Assembly (NCBI RefSeq): GCF_040054535.1
Contig: NC_090781.1
Location: 20,183,579 to 20,247,578, forward strand
DNA from: Antennarius striatus
Taxonomy: Eukaryota; Chordata; Actinopteri; Lophiiformes; Antennariidae
Length of the DNA stretch: 64,000 nt
Reading direction: 5' to 3'
A model generated the notes under the pieces. That model was not told where the DNA came from. It worked only from the letters and a program-made list of their open reading frames with translations, and made no database searches. Shown in pieces: positions 7,288-50,352 of the stretch (positions are counted from its first letter, which is position 1; every line of letters begins with the position of its first letter). Made by a program: the position numbers and the translations under genes.

Positions 7288-7686
7288 CCATTGATCACAT
7301 GCGTCACGCTCAAGGCCCGGGGGCCACATGTAGCCCGTCACATCATTTTTTGGGAAAGCATAAAAGTTCAGTGTGTAAAAATAAATAGGTCAAAAGTGTG
7401 CTTTGAGCAAAACTACATTTCCCACAATGCAGTAATTAAGCCCGTTTTAACATTGAAAAAAGTTTTGAACAAAGTTAATGTCCTAACATGTATTTGAGGT
7501 CATTTTTCTTTATTCACTTGGATAGTTTGATACTTGATTGATGGAGTTATTTAACATTAAGAAGTAGTTACATTTATTTTACATTATATTGACTTAGATT
7601 TTGTTACATTCATTAGTTACATATGAACAGCCATTAAGCTGATGCGGCCCTCTGTGAAAATGAGTTTGGACACCCCTGCCATAGAG
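7288..7686. mobile_element. hAT-type non-autonomous element (MITE) with degenerate 8-bp target duplication
   Basis: The element spans 7296-7678. The right end is 'gagtttggacacccctg'; the left end is a degenerate counterpart, 'cacatgcgtcacgctcaagg', followed by the 'ggcccgggggccacat' subterminal motif. Inside is 'ctacatttcccacaatgc', familiar from hAT-derived repeats. The flanks are CCATTGAT (7288-7295) and CCATAGAG (7679-7686). They match at 6 of 8 positions, as expected for an aged hAT 8-bp duplication. No transposase is encoded. Confidence 0.7.
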
Positions 7687-8045: not shown

Positions 8046-8132
8046 ATAAAAAACATCCCACCTGCATTCCACCTCTATGCATGTTTTCAGAGATGGAAGG
8101 AAGCCAGAGAACCGTAGAGAACTCACTTATGT

Positions 8133-9233
8133 TTAGGGTTGTGAGAGTTGTTGGAGCCGAGCCTCTACCATCAATGTCTCTTCTTTTATGTCTGCAACCT
8201 TAACCTCATGCAACAACTTCCTCATGTCCTTTTCCTGCTTTAAGTTCTGGATGGTCTGCTGTTGTGCCTTCAGTATCTCATCACGCTTTCTCTCAATCTC
8301 TTCACAGTCATGCAGCAAACACTCATACTCCACCGTCAAATCTCTCAACGTGTGTTCAATCATGTTTTCCTTCAATCGAGTTTTGGTCGACACTCTCACT
8401 TTTTTGCTTTTAACATAGTCTTCCTTGTCTTTTTGGAGCTCTGTCAGTGTCCGTAGTGAATCCTTCACTGAGTCATGTAGAGCTTTGTTGTTAAGAGCTT
8501 CTGTAAGCTCTTTGTCCAATTCCCACTGTGTTAGCCTTAAATTCCCACGTTTATCATACAGCTTCTTCTGCTCCAACATCACTGCTATCGTTTGCTGAAC
8601 GAGAGCCTCCTCCATCTTTGCGAGAGACGTTTTTTGTTCTTCTTTCATGTTCGTCATGTGTTCTTTCATATTTTTTTCGATTTTCTGAAGTTCAGCGTTG
8701 GTCTTTTCTTTTTTAGCGTTGATCAAATACTGCATTTTTTGGCGATATATTTCCTCGTGTTCTTTGATGAAACTTTCATAGGTCTTTGCCAATTCAAGTG
8801 ATTTCATCTCTACTGTTTGGTCCAACTGCTCTTTGAATATTTTGCTCTGGAGGTTCATTTTTCTGAGGCAAAATTCCAGGCCTTGAATTTCTTCTTGACG
8901 GATGAGCTCTGACTGAAGGAACTCGTTCTCAGCCAATGAGGACGCAGCCATGCTTTCCATCAGCACACTACATCTTTTATTGTTTTGTTCAGATAGAAGA
9001 TGCTCCAACTGATGTTTAAACTTATTGATTTCCTGCCGGTGCCTTTCCTTTAACTCTTCTTCTAGAAATTTGCGATCCCTCAACTTGGATCTTTTCTCCT
9101 CTACATTCCTCTTGGTGATTTCCCAGTAAGCGCGGATGTTGGCTTTCTCCAGCTGGAGGTTCTCCTTCTCCTTTCTCACTGCCTCCAGTTCCTTTTGGAG
9201 GGAAGCTACTTTGGCTGTCAGCTCTTTGGCCAT
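8133..9233 (-). CDS. Intronless DRC4/GAS8-like coiled-coil protein (366 aa)
   Basis: A single open frame of 366 codons with no intron. The product is charged and helical almost throughout, with heptad-like coiled coil. Residues ~28-50 read LEKANIRAYWEITKRNVEEK, close to the 'FWEITRRQLEEK' region of DRC4/GAS8. Residues ~285-360 (TKTRLKENMIEHTLRDLTVE, then ERKRDEI) align with the family's C-terminal conserved block. DRC4 is part of the nexin-dynein regulatory complex of motile axonemes. Family members are about 480 residues and split over many exons. This one lacks some 30 residues at the N-terminus and about 50-100 at the C-terminus. The start has a good context (A at -3, GCC after ATG). An intact frame despite high divergence suggests an old functional retrocopy. 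It is not part of the ancestral gene block. A 3' exon cannot be excluded: a GTGAGT-like donor lies just past the stop. Confidence 0.75.
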   Translation of the reverse strand: MAKELTAKVASLQKELEAVRKEKENLQLEKANIRAYWEITKRNVEEKRSKLRDRKFLEEELKERHRQEINKFKHQLEHLLSEQNNKRCSVLMESMAASSLAENEFLQSELIRQEEIQGLEFCLRKMNLQSKIFKEQLDQTVEMKSLELAKTYESFIKEHEEIYRQKMQYLINAKKEKTNAELQKIEKNMKEHMTNMKEEQKTSLAKMEEALVQQTIAVMLEQKKLYDKRGNLRLTQWELDKELTEALNNKALHDSVKDSLRTLTELQKDKEDYVKSKKVRVSTKTRLKENMIEHTLRDLTVEYECLLHDCEEIERKRDEILKAQQQTIQNLKQEKDMRKLLHEVKVADIKEETLMVEARLQQLSQP

Positions 9234-9479
9234 TTTTCTGCTTGGAGCTTCTAAATTACTTATTGTTTATTTATCCTTGACTTCTCGGCCAGAGAGTGGA
9301 ACTGAAACTGAACAGAAAAGCAATATATATGTATATATGTATCTCCAAACTTTTAATCTCAGATTACATCTCAGACTTCATGAACCAACCACTTGAACTT
9401 CAAACACTTCAAAGGACGAATAACATAACATAAAAAAACAATAATCTGTCAATACATAAAAAACAAAGGAAACATACAG

Positions 9480-9640
9480 TACATATATAAATATATATAT
9501 ATATTCATATAAATATATTTTTATATATATATGTTTATATATATGTTTATATAAATATATACATACATACATACATACACGTGTGTGTATATATATATAC
9601 ATGTATATACATGTATATATATATATACATGTATATAAAC
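9480..9640. repeat. Complex TA/TATG/CATA simple-repeat tract
   Basis: About 160 bp of TA, TATATG and CATA units about 250 bp upstream of the DRC4-like start. It has several short palindromes such as ACATGTATATACATGT and could form cruciforms. The Tyr/Ile/His-rich open frame over it is a product of the repeat. Confidence 0.9.
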
Positions 9641-9865: not shown

Positions 9866-10195
9866 TATTCATTCATACATTCATTCATTTCCTACCGCTT
9901 GCGGGTCACGGGTATTGCATGAGGCTATCCCAGCTGACATGTGGATGAGAGGCAGGGGACACTCCGAGCACAACACCAGCGTACTGCAGAGTCACATGGA
10001 AGACAAACAACCTCTCAGGCACACGGTCACACCTACAGGCAATTTGAAATGATCACTTCACCTAATGTGCATGTTTTTGGAGTTTGGAGAAAGCCAGACA
10101 ACCCGGAGAAAATCCACATAGAAACGAGAAGACAAACTCTGCTCAGAACAGGACTCAAACCCAGAACAGTCTTGCTGTGATGCGACAGCACTAGT
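9866..10195 (-). repeat. tRNA-headed dispersed teleost repeat (SINE-like), near full length, minus strand
   Basis: On the minus strand the element starts near 10195 with a tRNA-like head. It shows 'GTGCTGTCGCATCACAGCAAG' wording (only part quoted from 10187 down) and then a B box, GGTTTGAGTCC, near 10149-10159. The body has 'ccaaaaacatgcacatt' and 'gtgtgaccgtgtgcctga'. The end is 'gctgggatagcctcat', the 'aagcggtagg' motif and an (AATG)n tail at 9866-9890. I recognise it as one of the most common fish repeats but do not assert its database name. Confidence 0.75.
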
Positions 10196-21749: not shown

Positions 21750-30145
<8,396 letters not shown>

Positions 30146-31718
30146 TTTAGTCTTTAAATCTGATTAGGATATGAAAACAAATCCAAAATCAAGAAACCAC
30201 TCTCTAATATGGTACTGATGAAATAGATGGATTCCATTCTAATGTCAAGTATGTATGAACCAATAGAGTAAGGCGTTAGTTAGCTTAGCTTAGCATGAGA
30301 CATTTCAAGCAAAGAAGTGTATTTTAATATTTGAAAGCATCTAGAGGGACAAATTGAAGCTGAAGATAAAAAGAAAATGGTGAAGAAAGAGAGCGAAATG
30401 AAGTCAACCTTAAAGAGACAGGAAAATAAGGTGTGTTCTCCTTTGGCTCTGGTCATCCCAATGGCGGTTAGTGATTTGGTTGTGTGCATAAATGAGGACA
30501 AATATACAGATTAACAAGAAATAGTCTAAATTAATCTGCAGCTGTCAGCAATAGGCTGCAGCATCCTCCTGCAGACTTAACACTTTAACAGTAACCTGCA
30601 GGATTCAATAAAGCACTAATGATTACACGAGAACTAAAACAGAGGGCTATACAGGGAAACCACTCTCCTCTACAGTTACTATGTGAACATCACAGAAGCA
30701 CATTGAGGCTCACGTCCCCAGCTGACTGCCAGCAGATCTGTGGCTTTCTGTCGCTGACAAATAAAAGAGGGAAGAAATTTAATTAACAGCAAAGCGTGAA
30801 ATATGAAATAAGCAATTTACACCACGATACTCAGGGTGATGTATAACATGTTGGTGGTGAGGTGGTGTTACCTTCTACAGCCGGCATGCAGAATCGTAAA
30901 TTATGCATCCTTTGAGGAAATGAGGTCTGAGAAATATCTAGGCCAAGCTATACAGCCGTTTCTTCCCATTACAATCAGAGACTTGTAGATTATTGAGCAT
31001 AAATTGTGCAAACTATCTATCGGGTCCGTGAAGCACTGACTCTGAAGTCGACTGGCCACTGGCTGCATCTCCCTCTTCACTGAATCAAATTAATCTTTTG
31101 GTGGAAATAGATAATTTTCCCCTCTAATTGGATTCCTGGTTTAAACTGAAGGATGCAGCTGTAAAGCAAACCACAAACCAAATTCCCGAACAACTCTACA
31201 ATCAAATGAGCCTCGTTTGTTGGGAGCTGAATTCTTACCTCCCAACCTGTATGAAAGCAGGAACAGACACAAATAATAGATGCCCATGGTTAATCAGCCA
31301 ATGTGGTCAATCCATTGCTCGGCGCTGAATCGACCTGAAACATATAGAATTGAATTATTCTCTATGGTGGATGACAAAAGTGCTTAATGAGCAATGTGGC
31401 TCAAACCAGGAGGTTTGCCTCGTCTCATTGCCTAGATGTAACTTCTTACTTTCATATCCACTTGACAGTTGAATCAACTCTTCTTCCCAAGATGCACCAC
31501 TGATTTGAAGTGTTAGCCACTATTTAATTCAGGTCAGTGTATAATTACTCCCTGCTACCCAATCAGATCACTCAGATCGTGCACACCACGTCCAACACCT
31601 GCTTTTGGTCTTTTTCTTTCACACACAGCTGAAAGTACCTCCAAAATAAAGTTGAATTTCAAGTTAAATGAAGAGTAAATGACGATAAATCCTGTAACGT
31701 TGTGTTTGAGTGACTCAC

Positions 31719-34301: not shown

Positions 34302-42357
<8,056 letters not shown>

Positions 42358-44807: not shown

Positions 44808-46195
44808 TTTTAATAATCCCGACGGAAATTGTATATAACCACTGCTCAGGCATTACATAACGAATAAATACTGGAAAAACACCAGGACAAAAAGAAACAC
44901 TGACATCACAGGACATAACACAAGACAAACACTACACTAACAGACACATGCAGGATTAACAGGACTTATATACTAAACTATAACTAAAATATAAACAGTT
45001 TAAATTAATTTAAAATATAAACAGTATAGAATTAAAATATAAACAGTATAACATTAAATTAAATCTGTTCAACCATGTGCTGACACCCCCCCCCCCCGCT
45101 CCTCCTGACAGAGTCATTGTACCCCTGATGGCACGGGGCACGAGGGAGGACCTCAGTCTCTCTATGGAGGTGATGTGTGACAGCAGTCTGCTGCTGGAGG
45201 TGCTTCTCAGCTGGTAGAAGGTGGTGTGTAGGGGGTGGCTGGTGTTGTTCATGATAGCCCTGGACATGGTCCTGCTCTCCAGAAGCGTATCCACAGAGTC
45301 CAGGCTCAGACCAACCACTGAGCCAGCTCTGCGGATGAGTCTGTTAAGACGATCCATATCTCTTTTCCTGGCCCCACCACCCCAACACACAATGGTGTAT
45401 GACAGCACACTGGAGACTACGGACTGATAGAACATGAGAAGGAGCTCAGGACAGATGTTGAAGGAGGCCAGCCTCCTCAGGAAGTACATCCTGCTCTGCC
45501 CCTTCTTGTACACACAGTTGGAGTTGAGTGACCAGTCCAGTCTGCTGTCTAGCTGCAGATCCTGGTACTTATAGTTTTCTACCACCTCCACCTCACTGCC
45601 CTCGATGATCACTGGCTGTGGAGAAGGAGGTGCCCGCAGGAAATCCATTACCATCTCCTTCGTCTTGGAGATGTTGAGCTGGAGCTGGTCCTGTTGGCAC
45701 CAGCCCACAAAGTCAGCCACCAATGCCCTGTACCCCCCCTCATCACCCTCCCAGATACATGCCACAATCGCAGTGTCATCAGAGTACTTCTGTATGTGGC
45801 ATGTATCCGAGTTGTGCTTGAAGTCTGGTGTGAAGAGAATGGGGGAGAGAACGGTCCCCTTTGGCGCCCCCGTGCTGCTGGTCACCGTAGAAGACAAACA
45901 GTCCCCCATACGGATGTACTGGGGCCTGTCCGTTAGGTAGTCTGTGATCCAGCTCACAAGATAGGGGTCCACAGCCATGGAGGTCAGTTTATGCTGCAGG
46001 AGCCTTGGCTGAGTGGTGTTGAAGGCACTCAAAAAGTCAAAGAAGAGCACCCTGATGGCACAGCCCCCGACATCCAGGTAGGAGAGCATGCAGTGGAGGA
46101 GGTACAAGACAGCGTCGTTAACTCCAACCTTGGCCTGATAGACAAACTGGACAAGGTCAACAACATCAACAACAACATCCGAAAAGAAAAAAAAA
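44712..46195 (-). mobile_element. Rex1-like (CR1-related) LINE, 5'-truncated, frame still open
   Basis: The minus-strand frame at 45010-46260 covers the C-terminal two thirds of a non-LTR reverse transcriptase. Landmarks in order: FVYQAKVGVNDAVLYLLH, FFDFLSAFNTTQP, SWITDYLTDRPQYIR, APKGTVLSPILF, the catalytic YSDD, LNISKTKEMVMDF, a YLGI-equivalent region reading NYKYQDLQLDSRL, and the RLIRRAGSVVGLSLDSVD tail. It has no stop or frameshift across roughly 370 residues, so the insertion is fairly young. The segment between SPILF and the YSDD box looks a few residues short. Sequence 5' of about 46195 is absent. No endonuclease domain remains, so it cannot move on its own. I judge Rex1 the best match from the motif wording and ATCT tail; the clade is less certain than the class. 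Confidence 0.85.
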
Positions 46196-47336
46196 GGGTT
46201 GACGGGTAGAAACCATAATGGATGGACATAGAGCTGCAAAGACACAATATTTACTCCCAAAGATTCCTAAAAGGATTTACCAAAAAAGATGTGGAAGCAC
46301 AACAGGGGGCTCAAGCTCAATTTGTCTGTACTGTATCTGATGTGTTATGCATGAGTGAATGCATGAGAGGCTTTTCTGGTAGACAGGGCTAGAAAGTGAG
46401 ATGTCTCAAACAGACAAGTTCATCCTTGTCCACGCTGAGGCCAGGAATCTTTTGGAGTTGGAAAATAGAAGAATGGTCGTAAGAACAGGAGAGTTTACTG
46501 GACACATTATATCATTCAAGTATTATGTTGAGTATTTTACTTGCCCAGGTTAGGTTAAGGTCTTAATTTATGCTGATTCCACAGGACATTTGAAGATGTG
46601 TCCACACCTCTGCAGTTGTTCATGAAATTCAGATAGTATAGATTTGTATCTGAAGGATAAATTCTGTTTATAATTTCAGTGCTGTTATAAATGACTGCAA
46701 TGTTTGGTACTAGGAACTCAGAAGAGACATCTATAAATGGCACATTTGAAGAGTATCACCAAGAGGATACTGTGACGCATGAAGGTGAGCTGTTGTGTGT
46801 CACAATAAAATTGCTGTCTGAAAATACACGTCAGAAAGACAAAAGATACCACTAACAATTATTTCCAGGATAAACAAACTTGTTATATACCATGAACTGC
46901 GGGGGAAAACTTGGGTTTTTAAGAGGGAGTTTAATAAGTTTTGTACTCAGATCATTTTGTGTTTTAAAGTGTCAGAACAGAGCAATATGGAAGCAAAGTA
47001 TTCTACATTCCGTATTCTACATTCCCAATGTATACACCTGAACCTCCGACAGGATACACCTTCAAAGTATTCAGAACCTGCACTGATGAGTAGATATCTA
47101 CGGAGGTAGTGTTGTATTTATGAACCTGCTTAACCAAATGGGAAATAAGAGGTGAAGGCAGCCCTGAGAACACAGTATTTTCTAAAATATGATACCGGTA
47201 TAAGTTTATTGTATGGTATGATATAGTATTTTATAAAGTATAGGGCAGATCTAACAGAAACAGAACACATTGTGGTCTGAATAACTGTTTTAAACCCAAG
47301 AGTGACACGAGACCCACCAGTATCCATTGTTTTAGT
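46196..47336. other. Intergenic interval between LINE and GET1 3' end
   Basis: AT-rich sequence with no exon or recognisable repeat family. Short open frames only. Confidence 0.5.
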
Positions 47337-47688: not shown

Positions 47689-50352
47689 CTAGCGGATGGC
47701 ATGGAGTCCCAGAGTAACTACTTTGTTGCAGACCACCAACCAGCATGTGATCCCCACTCCACCTGAAGGGAGGCAACAGCTGAATGAGCATTGACGACTC
47801 AATTCATAAATAAAATATGAAGATAATTCAAGTACCTGCAACTCCTGTTGGGAAGGCTACAAGGCGTTCCACTGGGGCGATCCATTTACTGGGGACCACG
47901 GTCACCGGATCAGGATAATACTTCCATATCAAGGAGATCATCAGAGCAGCCTATCAAATAAAAATATGTAACACTTATTTGTAGGCTTGCCTTTTACAGG
48001 TTAGAACTATTTTTATTTGAAGTGCATGAATAGCATTAAAAATACAATTCTTTTGTGATTTCAACCTACCTGCAATATATAGAAGACAATGTTCACAACC
48101 CATTTCATTTTGGCTTGTTGTGCTGTTCTTGATTTCACTGCAGGGGTGAGAAAATACATTTTAGACTTCATCCAAGGATTTTTGAAGCTACCAAATCCCA
48201 ACCCTGCCTTTTTAAGCCATTAATCAGATTCAATAACTTGGTACTACAGTTTGACACCAACTCTGTCATGGTCTATAATAGTCTTTGCTCTGCTGGTTGC
48301 GTGTATTATGATGATAACTGGACAATCCTGGGGGTGACGAGGAAAGACAGCAACAGGCAGCAGCTGTTCCCAATGAACAATGTTCTAAGCAACCTGCAGT
48401 TGGTGCTTTGACTGCATGGATCTTCTGTAATATACACCAACAGATGTGGAAGACACTATGTGCCATTTGAAGGAAAAGTGACAGAGCACAAAGAGAAAAT
48501 TATAGGGCTGGACAAATAAGAACAGTTCTGTAAAAAACGTTTCCTTTGTAAAATTTATGGTCGTTTTTGTTGAAACTGCCAAAGAAAAATATTGTATCTA
48601 GATAATTAATAGTGATGCTGCAAATTGTTACCAGATTCCCCTAATGTTGTGAATTGAGCTGAATTGCATCTCTTTCAGTTGGATGCTGTAATTAAGTTAA
48701 TTTTCCTGTCACAAAATCTATCTTATTTATAATGGTCACAATAACTACTTCCGTCTCTCACCATGTGTTTTCAGTTTGTCTGTCATCTTGTTGATTTTGC
48801 GCTCCAGTCTGGCATATCTAGCAAACTCATCCATCATGCTAATTGAGGCCTGCTCCTTCTTCATCTCCTGGATTTCGGTCCTCATTTCGCTCTCCTGCTC
48901 AGCATCTTTCTGCACCATCTTGGAGAGCTTGAAAGATGGAAAAAGATAATTAATTACAAAATGTCTTCAGGTGAAACTGACCTGCAGCTGGATGAAAAAT
49001 TATTCCCCCATTGTTGGCCAAAGGAGAAAAACAATCATGGTGATCAACTGATTGCAATAACCAAACAAGCAGTTATAGTTATTCGATGCTACTTTCCTCC
49101 CAAAAATTTTGCTCGAAATCTAATTGTAATGACTCAAATTCTCAGGATTCAACAACCTAAAGATAATCCTTTGGCTGAAGTACTACTACAAATCAGATGT
49201 CAAACTATTGTGCCAACCTTCATACACTGATGTGTTTCCTGTTAGGCCCAAATTCTATGAGGAATTAAAAAAGAAGCACATTTCTAGCAGTGAGGCCATG
49301 ATGCTCTGGGGCTCCTTTGCTTTCTCAAATACTGCAAACCTGCAGCATCTAGATCAGGAAATTCTAGAAGAAAACATCTTGACATCTGTGTAAAAGCTGA
49401 GGCTTGGGTGTCACTGAACATTCCAAAAGGAAAATGATCTCATCAGCCATTAAGCTGCAGTTTTAGAAGTCATCCTGGCATGGTCTACTGCAGTAAATTA
49501 AAACCAATAGAAATCCCCTTGTGAGATTTCAAAAGGTGGCTGCAGCACAAAAAACCAGGAACTTTATGTATCTGGAGGCCTTCCTTTGCTTGTGAGCAAT
49601 GGAATAATAACATCAAGCCGGAATGCTTCCGTCTTGATATGCATCACATTTACACTTGAGGCCATAGCTGCCTCAGGGTGCTCCAGTCTACATGATACTA
49701 GACATTTAGTAATAGTCTAACAAACAACTGATTAATAGAATAGTTTGCCTATAAACCTACATATACTGAAGTATATGCATTTTTTCTTTCCAGTTCTAAC
49801 TTGGGTTAATGTTTGCAGAAATGCAGTCATACACTGTAGATTGTGAAGTGATTCTGTAAGACCATAATCTGGCATGTTATGCTTTACTGACTCTAGATCC
49901 CATTTTGGAAAGCTAAATTTAGCAGGAAAGCTAAATTGTAAACACTTATCGTTTGACGTACTATGGTCTCCAAACATGTTCACAGCGGTGCAACACTGAA
50001 ATGTTTCCTCCCTGCGTGCAGCAGCCACTATGCCAGGATGTCGGGGGGGGGGAAAACCCCACCCTCTGGAGGAACAGCCACCGATTTTCCAAGCTAGCAG
50101 GCGAGCTACGTAGCATCGCCATTAACTTTTGTTTACAGTAAGCTAAGATCGCAAACCGTAGCGACTGTAGCTCCAGAAATTAACATTAAACACAAAACGC
50201 CACCATTAGTATAAACGTTAAAGACACTCACGTTATATATCTAACCAATAAAAAACACTTACGAAAGAGGAAATGGTCGGCAGCAGCGTTTTCATGAGGT
50301 TGCAGAGCGAAACAGACCCCAGCACAAGGAACCACACATAGCCGGTCGCCAT
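47689..50352 (-). CDS. get1: Guided entry of tail-anchored proteins factor 1 (WRB)
   Basis: ER membrane subunit that, with CAMLG/GET2, receives tail-anchored proteins from GET3/TRC40 and inserts them. Five exons (minus strand): 50263-50352, 48762-48927, 48070-48137, 47836-47950, 47689-47762. Phases fit, giving 170 residues (human 174). Residues ~5-25 form membrane helix 1 (start MATGYVWFLVLGSVSLCN). Residues ~31-86 form the charged coiled coil that docks GET3, with MMDEFARYARLERKINKMTD nearly identical to human. Residues ~97-120 form helix 2 (WVVNIVFYILQ, LMISLIWKYY). Next comes the loop VVPSKWIAPVERLVAFPTG, then helix 3 (GVGITCWLVVCNKVVTLGL). Intron 1 holds a Tc1-like relic on the opposite strand. 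The start codon is 743 bp from that of HMGN1, head to head. Confidence 0.96.
49200..49620 (+). pseudogene. Decayed Tc1/mariner-type transposase in GET1 intron 1
   Basis: Plus-strand translation shows scattered Tc1-family landmarks in the right order but broken by stops and frame changes. Near 49291: EAMMLWGSFAFSNTANLQ (family: 'SVMVWGCFAASGTGNL'). Near 49420: TFQKEND (family: 'FQQDND'). Near 49505-49600: NRNPLVRFQKVAAAQKTRN, then LEAFLCL (family: 'NPIENLWRDLKKAV...LEAFA'). The acidic catalytic triad is not intact. The element is antisense to GET1 and old; its inverted terminal repeats are not evident. Confidence 0.7.

Follow-up and report, generated by a model that had tools for sequence, protein, structure and literature searches.

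An intron-free DRC4/GAS8-like coding frame in Antennarius striatus, probably an old retrocopy retained as a coiled-coil rod

The locus and its neighbourhood

The window, which is the whole 64-kb stretch of Antennarius striatus DNA that was analysed, contained the following features around the coding frame under study:

8078-8113 and 10068-10103: dispersed-repeat-like pieces of 36 nt, 81% alike and in the same orientation
9483-9637: imperfect AT dinucleotide array of 77.5 units with 72% matches
26624-27121: Ig-like exon, under the Pfam cut-off
29600-30163: Ig-like exon, under the Pfam cut-off
38794-39174, minus strand: glutamate-rich frame near SH3BGR, no Pfam match
40956-41321: SH3BGR
45010-46266, minus strand: stop-to-stop frame of 418 codons carrying a reverse-transcriptase domain (Pfam RVT_1), the longest listed frame in the window
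47701-50349, minus strand: GET1 (WRB) exons, five tblastn pieces that were 48-82% identical to human GET1
From 60689: WD40 exons

We take the two Ig-like exons to be IGSF5 and the WD40 exons to be BRWD1. On human chromosome 21q22.2 the gene order is IGSF5, SH3BGR, GET1 and BRWD1, and the order in the window fits. The GET1 pieces support a block resembling human 21q22.2, in which no copy of DRC4 is known. The original prediction had placed the coding frame next to the PCP4 promoter. This was left unconfirmed, as human PCP4 gave a best tblastn E value of only 0.57 in the 64-kb window and no MSERQ-like start was present there.

The glutamate-rich frame at 38794-39174 is perhaps the acidic tail of SH3BGR. 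The reverse-transcriptase frame at 45010-46266 indicated that the region of the intron-free DRC4-like gene also holds a LINE-type element. The two repeat-like pieces flanked the DRC4-like frame at a distance of about 2 kb from each other; both look longer by eye, blastn aligned just 36 nt of them, and a third copy was absent from the window. Insertion of the DRC4-like gene into one repeat was thus not obvious. The AT array sat 250 bases upstream of the DRC4-like start codon.

The coding frame and its immediate flanks contained:

8133..9233, minus strand: DRC4/GAS8-like coding frame, 366 codons plus TAA, no intron, matched by Pfam GAS and by DRC4-type chains of the PDB
9267-9269, minus strand: in-frame stop TAA 5' of the ATG, bounding the frame
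9308-9310, minus strand: acceptor-like CAG behind a pyrimidine run, candidate 3' end of a 5' UTR intron
8121-8126, minus strand: donor-like GTGAGT, 6 nt 3' of the stop codon, candidate splice donor
7573-7578, minus strand: AATAAA, poly-A signal candidate from the sequence scan
7509-7514, minus strand: AATAAA, another poly-A signal candidate from the sequence scan

On the minus strand the frame ran uninterrupted from the ATG at 9233 to the last codon at 8136-8138 and the TAA at 8133-8135, in agreement with the 366 codons described originally. The in-frame TAA at 9267-9269 showed that the frame is complete and no piece of a longer one. It was the second-longest among 80 listed stop-to-stop frames of at least 90 residues in the 64-kb window, and its third codon positions were 53% G+C compared with 36% in sampled flanks. 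The earlier statement that the gene has no introns held for the coding frame; in the UTRs, splice-like sites leave introns possible. The DRC4-like transcript may have gained UTR introns, and each candidate site could also have arisen by chance; for GTGAGT, one or two hexamers were expected per 3.3 kb scanned by our own arithmetic. No RFX X-box above chance was found in the 2 kb upstream of the frame, where the best score on either strand was 9/12 and scores of at least 9 were reached in 74 of 100 one-strand shuffles.

Homology and colinearity with DRC4

The predicted resemblance to DRC4/GAS8 was borne out by Pfam, PDB and shuffle results. Pfam GAS (PF13851) matched the DRC4-like protein with an E value of 2.5e-8 and 34 bits, just above its cut-off of 32.3, and was the sole family over its cut-off (two others were listed at E 0.11 and 0.15). 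When the protein was used as a phmmer query against the PDB, all six sequences with E<=1 were DRC4-type. The best match was human DRC4 (8j07; E 2.8e-21, spanning residues 5-349), followed by a chain 91% identical to human DRC4 (E 1.3e-19); a 7ju4 chain matched at E 5.6e-15. The remaining matches were annotated as "trypanin-related protein" (E 3.4e-10), "T-lymphocyte triggering factor" (E 0.0014) and "growth-arrest-specific microtubule-binding protein" (E 0.02), and these three chains were also retrieved with human DRC4 as the query. We take the 7ju4 chain to be from Chlamydomonas. Two 8tek chains, presumably the two Tetrahymena DRC4 paralogues, matched human DRC4 over 25-457 and 3-473. A better match to a non-DRC coiled-coil family, against which the original prediction had warned, was absent from both Pfam and the PDB. 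The Smith-Waterman score was 374, whereas 300 plain shuffles reached at most 150 and 300 shuffles preserving the hydrophobic pattern at most 218, showing that composition is no explanation for the DRC4 match.

No relatives of the DRC4-like protein were detected in the viral contig set (tblastn discarded 13 and 114 pattern matches) or in the prokaryote contig set (29 and 105 discarded), as expected of such sets. In the titles, abstracts and passages of a mostly open-access literature, no report of a fish DRC4 paralogue was found. Within the same material "DRC4B" was used in cilia papers and "gas8-like" in Plasmodium papers and one in chemistry, and the passages describing zebrafish Gas8 mutants did not mention a paralogue (PMC4263700).

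The human DRC4 sequence used for the alignment agreed with the PDB at every position (478/478). Seven rows were aligned, consisting of the DRC4-like protein and six PDB DRC4-type rows that included two mammal rows and Chlamydomonas. The DRC4-like protein was colinear with human DRC4 27-391 over 364 residue pairs, interrupted only by the loss of one residue and the gain of two. The two separated blocks reported earlier were thereby replaced by one continuous alignment with two tiny gaps. Identity was 24-25% with Chlamydomonas and both mammal rows (24% with human) and 19-23% with the other three. By comparison, human and Chlamydomonas DRC4 were 57% identical and the five other PDB rows were 35-91% identical to human DRC4, so that the DRC4-like protein, at 24%, lay farther away. 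The six other rows agreed completely in 46 columns, of which the DRC4-like protein kept 21 and changed 25. The invariant residues retained include Q27, E29, W37, I39, E63, H65, K73 and H78-L80; the IKNYYNDIT block was mostly gone.

Conservation was uneven along the protein, with borderline heterogeneity among 30-residue bins (permutation p 0.069). The stretches that stood out, and the Pfam match, were:

8964..9143, minus strand: best-kept N-terminal stretch, residues 31-90 with YWEITKR, ERH and HLL, human 57-116
8538..8969, minus strand: most strongly eroded part, residues 89-232, aligned with human 115-258
8145..8567, minus strand: Pfam GAS PF13851 match, residues 223-363

Of the columns conserved between the human, mammal and Chlamydomonas rows, residues 31-90 kept 20/46. 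Residues 89-232 kept 16/78 conserved columns compared with 45/119 outside (Fisher p 0.012, for a region chosen post hoc). We take human 115-258 to be the microtubule-association domain; erosion of the stretch aligned to it counts against simple microtubule binding by the DRC4-like protein. A microtubule-association domain is named in two papers on GAS8 (PMC2797798, PMC4966937).

Both ends of the family protein were missing, as had been predicted. Human DRC4 1-26, which holds the KKKGKKGKAK tail, was absent, and the start codon of the DRC4-like frame aligned one residue from human Met26. The frame ended at human 391, and the last 87 DRC4 residues, including the block from NLDP to FGIP...GF.PL, were absent. 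Neither end was found elsewhere in the 64-kb window, as the best tblastn match including human DRC4 1-21 had an E value of 1.1 and the best including human 372-478 had an E value of 2.4, both at chance level. The coding frame is thus homologous to DRC4 and colinear with it, and has lost both ends. Mutation of human N276 has been reported to disturb the DRC4 coiled coil (PMC10504270); this residue was retained as N249, and human E199 corresponded to A173. AlphaFold, run on the single sequence, predicted four long helices only, with a mean pLDDT of 73.3 and a pTM of 0.26.

Selection, age and origin

Neutral decay of the human DRC4 frame produced stops that averaged 7.6 once identity had fallen to 70% and 17.6 once it had fallen to 25%, and none of 60 simulations was stop-free at any of seven divergences; these neutral simulations start from human DRC4 and not from the fish parent sequence. 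In a test of architecture, 500 neutral runs with stops forbidden were taken to the observed identity. The DRC4-like protein had 3 Pro and Gly residues in total, compared with a neutral mean of 38 and a minimum of 21 in the 500 runs, and 37% E+K+Q compared with 19%. Coherence of heptad phase with human at replaced sites was 0.669, while neutral runs gave 0.179 +/- 0.169; the observed value was reached by a single run in 500, and by none of 500 when decay was halted at 35% identity. By the same measure the Chlamydomonas row had 0.739 and the Tetrahymena row 0.772. Hydrophobics were retained at replaced sites only slightly more (0.536) than under neutrality (0.455 +/- 0.053); a plain permutation gave p 0.00015 for this retention, but ignores the genetic code. 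The 3.5-residue period was present at p<0.05 in 2 of 10 single 35-residue windows (human DRC4, 2 of 13). The selection case is therefore carried by the phase, the missing Pro/Gly and the open frame, the hydrophobic and single-window tests being weaker.

While 275 of the 364 aligned residues changed, the protein remained a long coiled coil with length and register maintained, showing constraint against stops, helix breakers and register changes. The idea that the copy was kept by selection thus gained support from the neutral-decay, Pro/Gly and heptad-phase tests, and we regard retention as probable; a very recent loss of function may also fit the frame data.

The branch of the DRC4-like protein was 2.57 substitutions per residue under the best model (median 2.60 in 40 bootstraps, 2.04-3.02) and 1.90 under LG+G4, approximately three times the whole path from human to Chlamydomonas. 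A codon holds about 2.3 replacement sites. With the zebrafish silent rate of 4.13e-9 per site per year (PMC3091775), the branch corresponded, by our arithmetic, to approximately 200-270 million years of unconstrained change. A branch of this length indicates that the copy is old, or that its replacements accumulated at the neutral rate or faster.

The tree grouped the DRC4-like protein with mammals (support 86.3/84). The approximately-unbiased test left all seven placements open under two models and six of seven under LG+G4. Site patterns leaned against a mammal-side placement: in the 46 columns in which both mammal rows departed from a state common to Chlamydomonas and another row, the DRC4-like protein matched Chlamydomonas in 12 and human in 3, and in all 156 columns that differ between human and Chlamydomonas it matched them in 27 and 25, respectively. 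These patterns could reflect an old split, or a fish gas8 retaining the older state.

An old retrocopy is the likeliest origin of the frame, because human GAS8 has 11 exons (PMC2797798) and the DRC4-like coding frame has no intron. No mark of a retrocopy was recognised for this part of the original prediction, and the tree fixed neither the time of the split nor the lineage from which the copy came. Neither a poly-A tract nor a target-site duplication was recognised by eye in the flanks or among 20 of 21 direct-repeat families of at least 14 nt; in a copy this old they would be expected to have disappeared.

Possible roles and significance

On balance, we favor the view that the frame encodes a functional DRC4/GAS8 paralogue, most likely derived from an old retrocopy, whose product is a near all-helical rod of DRC4 length and register. 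Its probable function is that of a specialised spacer or partner. The protein would dimerise by means of the DRC4 coiled coil, either as a homodimer or in combination with DRC4. Paired with DRC4 it could weaken or vary the link; it could also pair with itself, or act as a spacer elsewhere. With no lysine-rich tail, no C-terminal part and a much eroded microtubule-association sequence, the DRC4-like protein would not replace DRC4. At 24% identity to human, surfaces for binding partners may also be lost.

In the passages available, DRC4 is described as a homodimer in Chlamydomonas with C-terminal fragments in the base plate, and Tetrahymena DRC4A and DRC4B as mainly forming a heterodimer (PMC10504270). 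The lysine-rich regions of DRC2, DRC4 and DRC11 were reported to face the next doublet (PMC10266980); judged by its sequence, the DRC4 region in question would be the N-terminus. In GAS8 disease, mutations were reported at C309, A334, G357 and A391, with a mouse gene trap at K337, and the area was called critical (PMC4966937). The DRC4-like protein spans this area in the alignment. Residue 334 was arginine and not A in the human sequence used, indicating that the numbering in that paper may differ. The disease truncations also remove the C-terminus, which hints that a rod without the C-terminal end would not replace DRC4. Sea bass gas8 was among the genes peaking in late spermatogenesis (PMC13342237), which makes the sperm role suggested originally possible, though speculative, for the DRC4-like copy.

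The DRC4-like protein resembled DRC4/GAS8 (also GAS11, PF2 and trypanin; nexin-dynein regulatory complex subunit 4) in its colinear coiled coil over human 27-391, its match to Pfam GAS, the shared WEIT, ERH and HLL, the start one residue from human Met26 and the retained heptad register of the rod. It differed in its identity of 24% to human, the missing lysine-rich N-terminus and NLDP-to-FGIP...GF.PL block, the eroded microtubule-association region, and an intronless frame as opposed to the 11 exons of human GAS8 (PMC2797798). Like the mainly heterodimeric Tetrahymena pair DRC4A/DRC4B (PMC10504270), it is a second DRC4-type protein; unlike them, it lacks both ends and has diverged much further. 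Coiled coils described as molecular spacers likewise change in sequence while length and register stay (PMC5082667), whereas the DRC4-like protein descends from a known axonemal subunit and still has some family-specific residues. In zebrafish, 652 retrocopies were reported, of which 440 were intact (PMC3091775). As in such fish retrogenes, the DRC4-like frame is an intact, intron-free relative of a multi-exon gene, but no tail or insertion-site marks were recognised.

A possible but less probable explanation is that the frame encodes a DRC4-derived coiled coil which has given up its axonemal work and been recruited to serve as a generic spacer, at the centrosome, manchette or Golgi for instance. 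Length and heptad register were retained while the sequence was replaced, a pattern for which the term molecular spacers has been used (PMC5082667), and a Golgi localisation of GAS8 has been reported for COS7 cells (PMC2797798). The absence of an X-box above chance in the 2 kb upstream, and the fact that the stretch aligned to the microtubule-association domain was the most eroded, also agree with such a recruitment. However, some of the best-kept residues (WEI, ERH, HLL) are common to distant DRC4s and are not those of a generic coiled coil, and pattern-preserving shuffles stayed far under the observed score (218 compared with 374).

A pseudogene, or a gene with only recent loss of function, is improbable. 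Although the branch was very long (1.90 to 2.57 substitutions per residue) and both ends were lost, 366 codons without a stop, an almost gapless alignment at 24% identity, 3 Pro/Gly residues and a preserved heptad phase argue against it. Given the intact frame, the Pro/Gly count and the phase, only a very recent functional loss would fit among pseudogene readings.

It is very unlikely that this is an ordinary gene serving as the DRC4 of the host. The family match did extend across 364 residue pairs, but neither the conserved C-terminal block nor the lysine-rich N-terminus was present, just 21 of 46 invariant residues were kept, and identity to human (24%) was below that of the five other PDB rows (35-91%). 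Spurious matches can occur among coiled coils, yet an unrelated coiled coil resembling DRC4 by composition only is scarcely credible with a score of 374 where 300 pattern-keeping shuffles reached 218 at most, only DRC4-type PDB matches at E<=1 and near-gapless colinearity.

A bolder scenario is doubtful. The protein would be a second DRC4 of the vertebrate lineage, perhaps older than the fishes and reduced to the rod, in which sequence turned over nearly without constraint while length and heptad phase were locked. It would pair with full-length DRC4 in sperm, giving a nexin-dynein regulatory complex minus one lysine tail and one base-plate end, and thereby a lineage-specific tuning of doublet sliding.

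The link that controls ciliary beating contains DRC4 as a core subunit. If the DRC4-like protein is already annotated as such in fish, the matter would be more ordinary. If it is a selected vertebrate paralogue without the ends, the scaffold of this link can be retooled, and the copy would offer a natural experiment on the function of the DRC4 ends. In that event it would also clearly exemplify a coiled coil under selection for length and register more than for residues.
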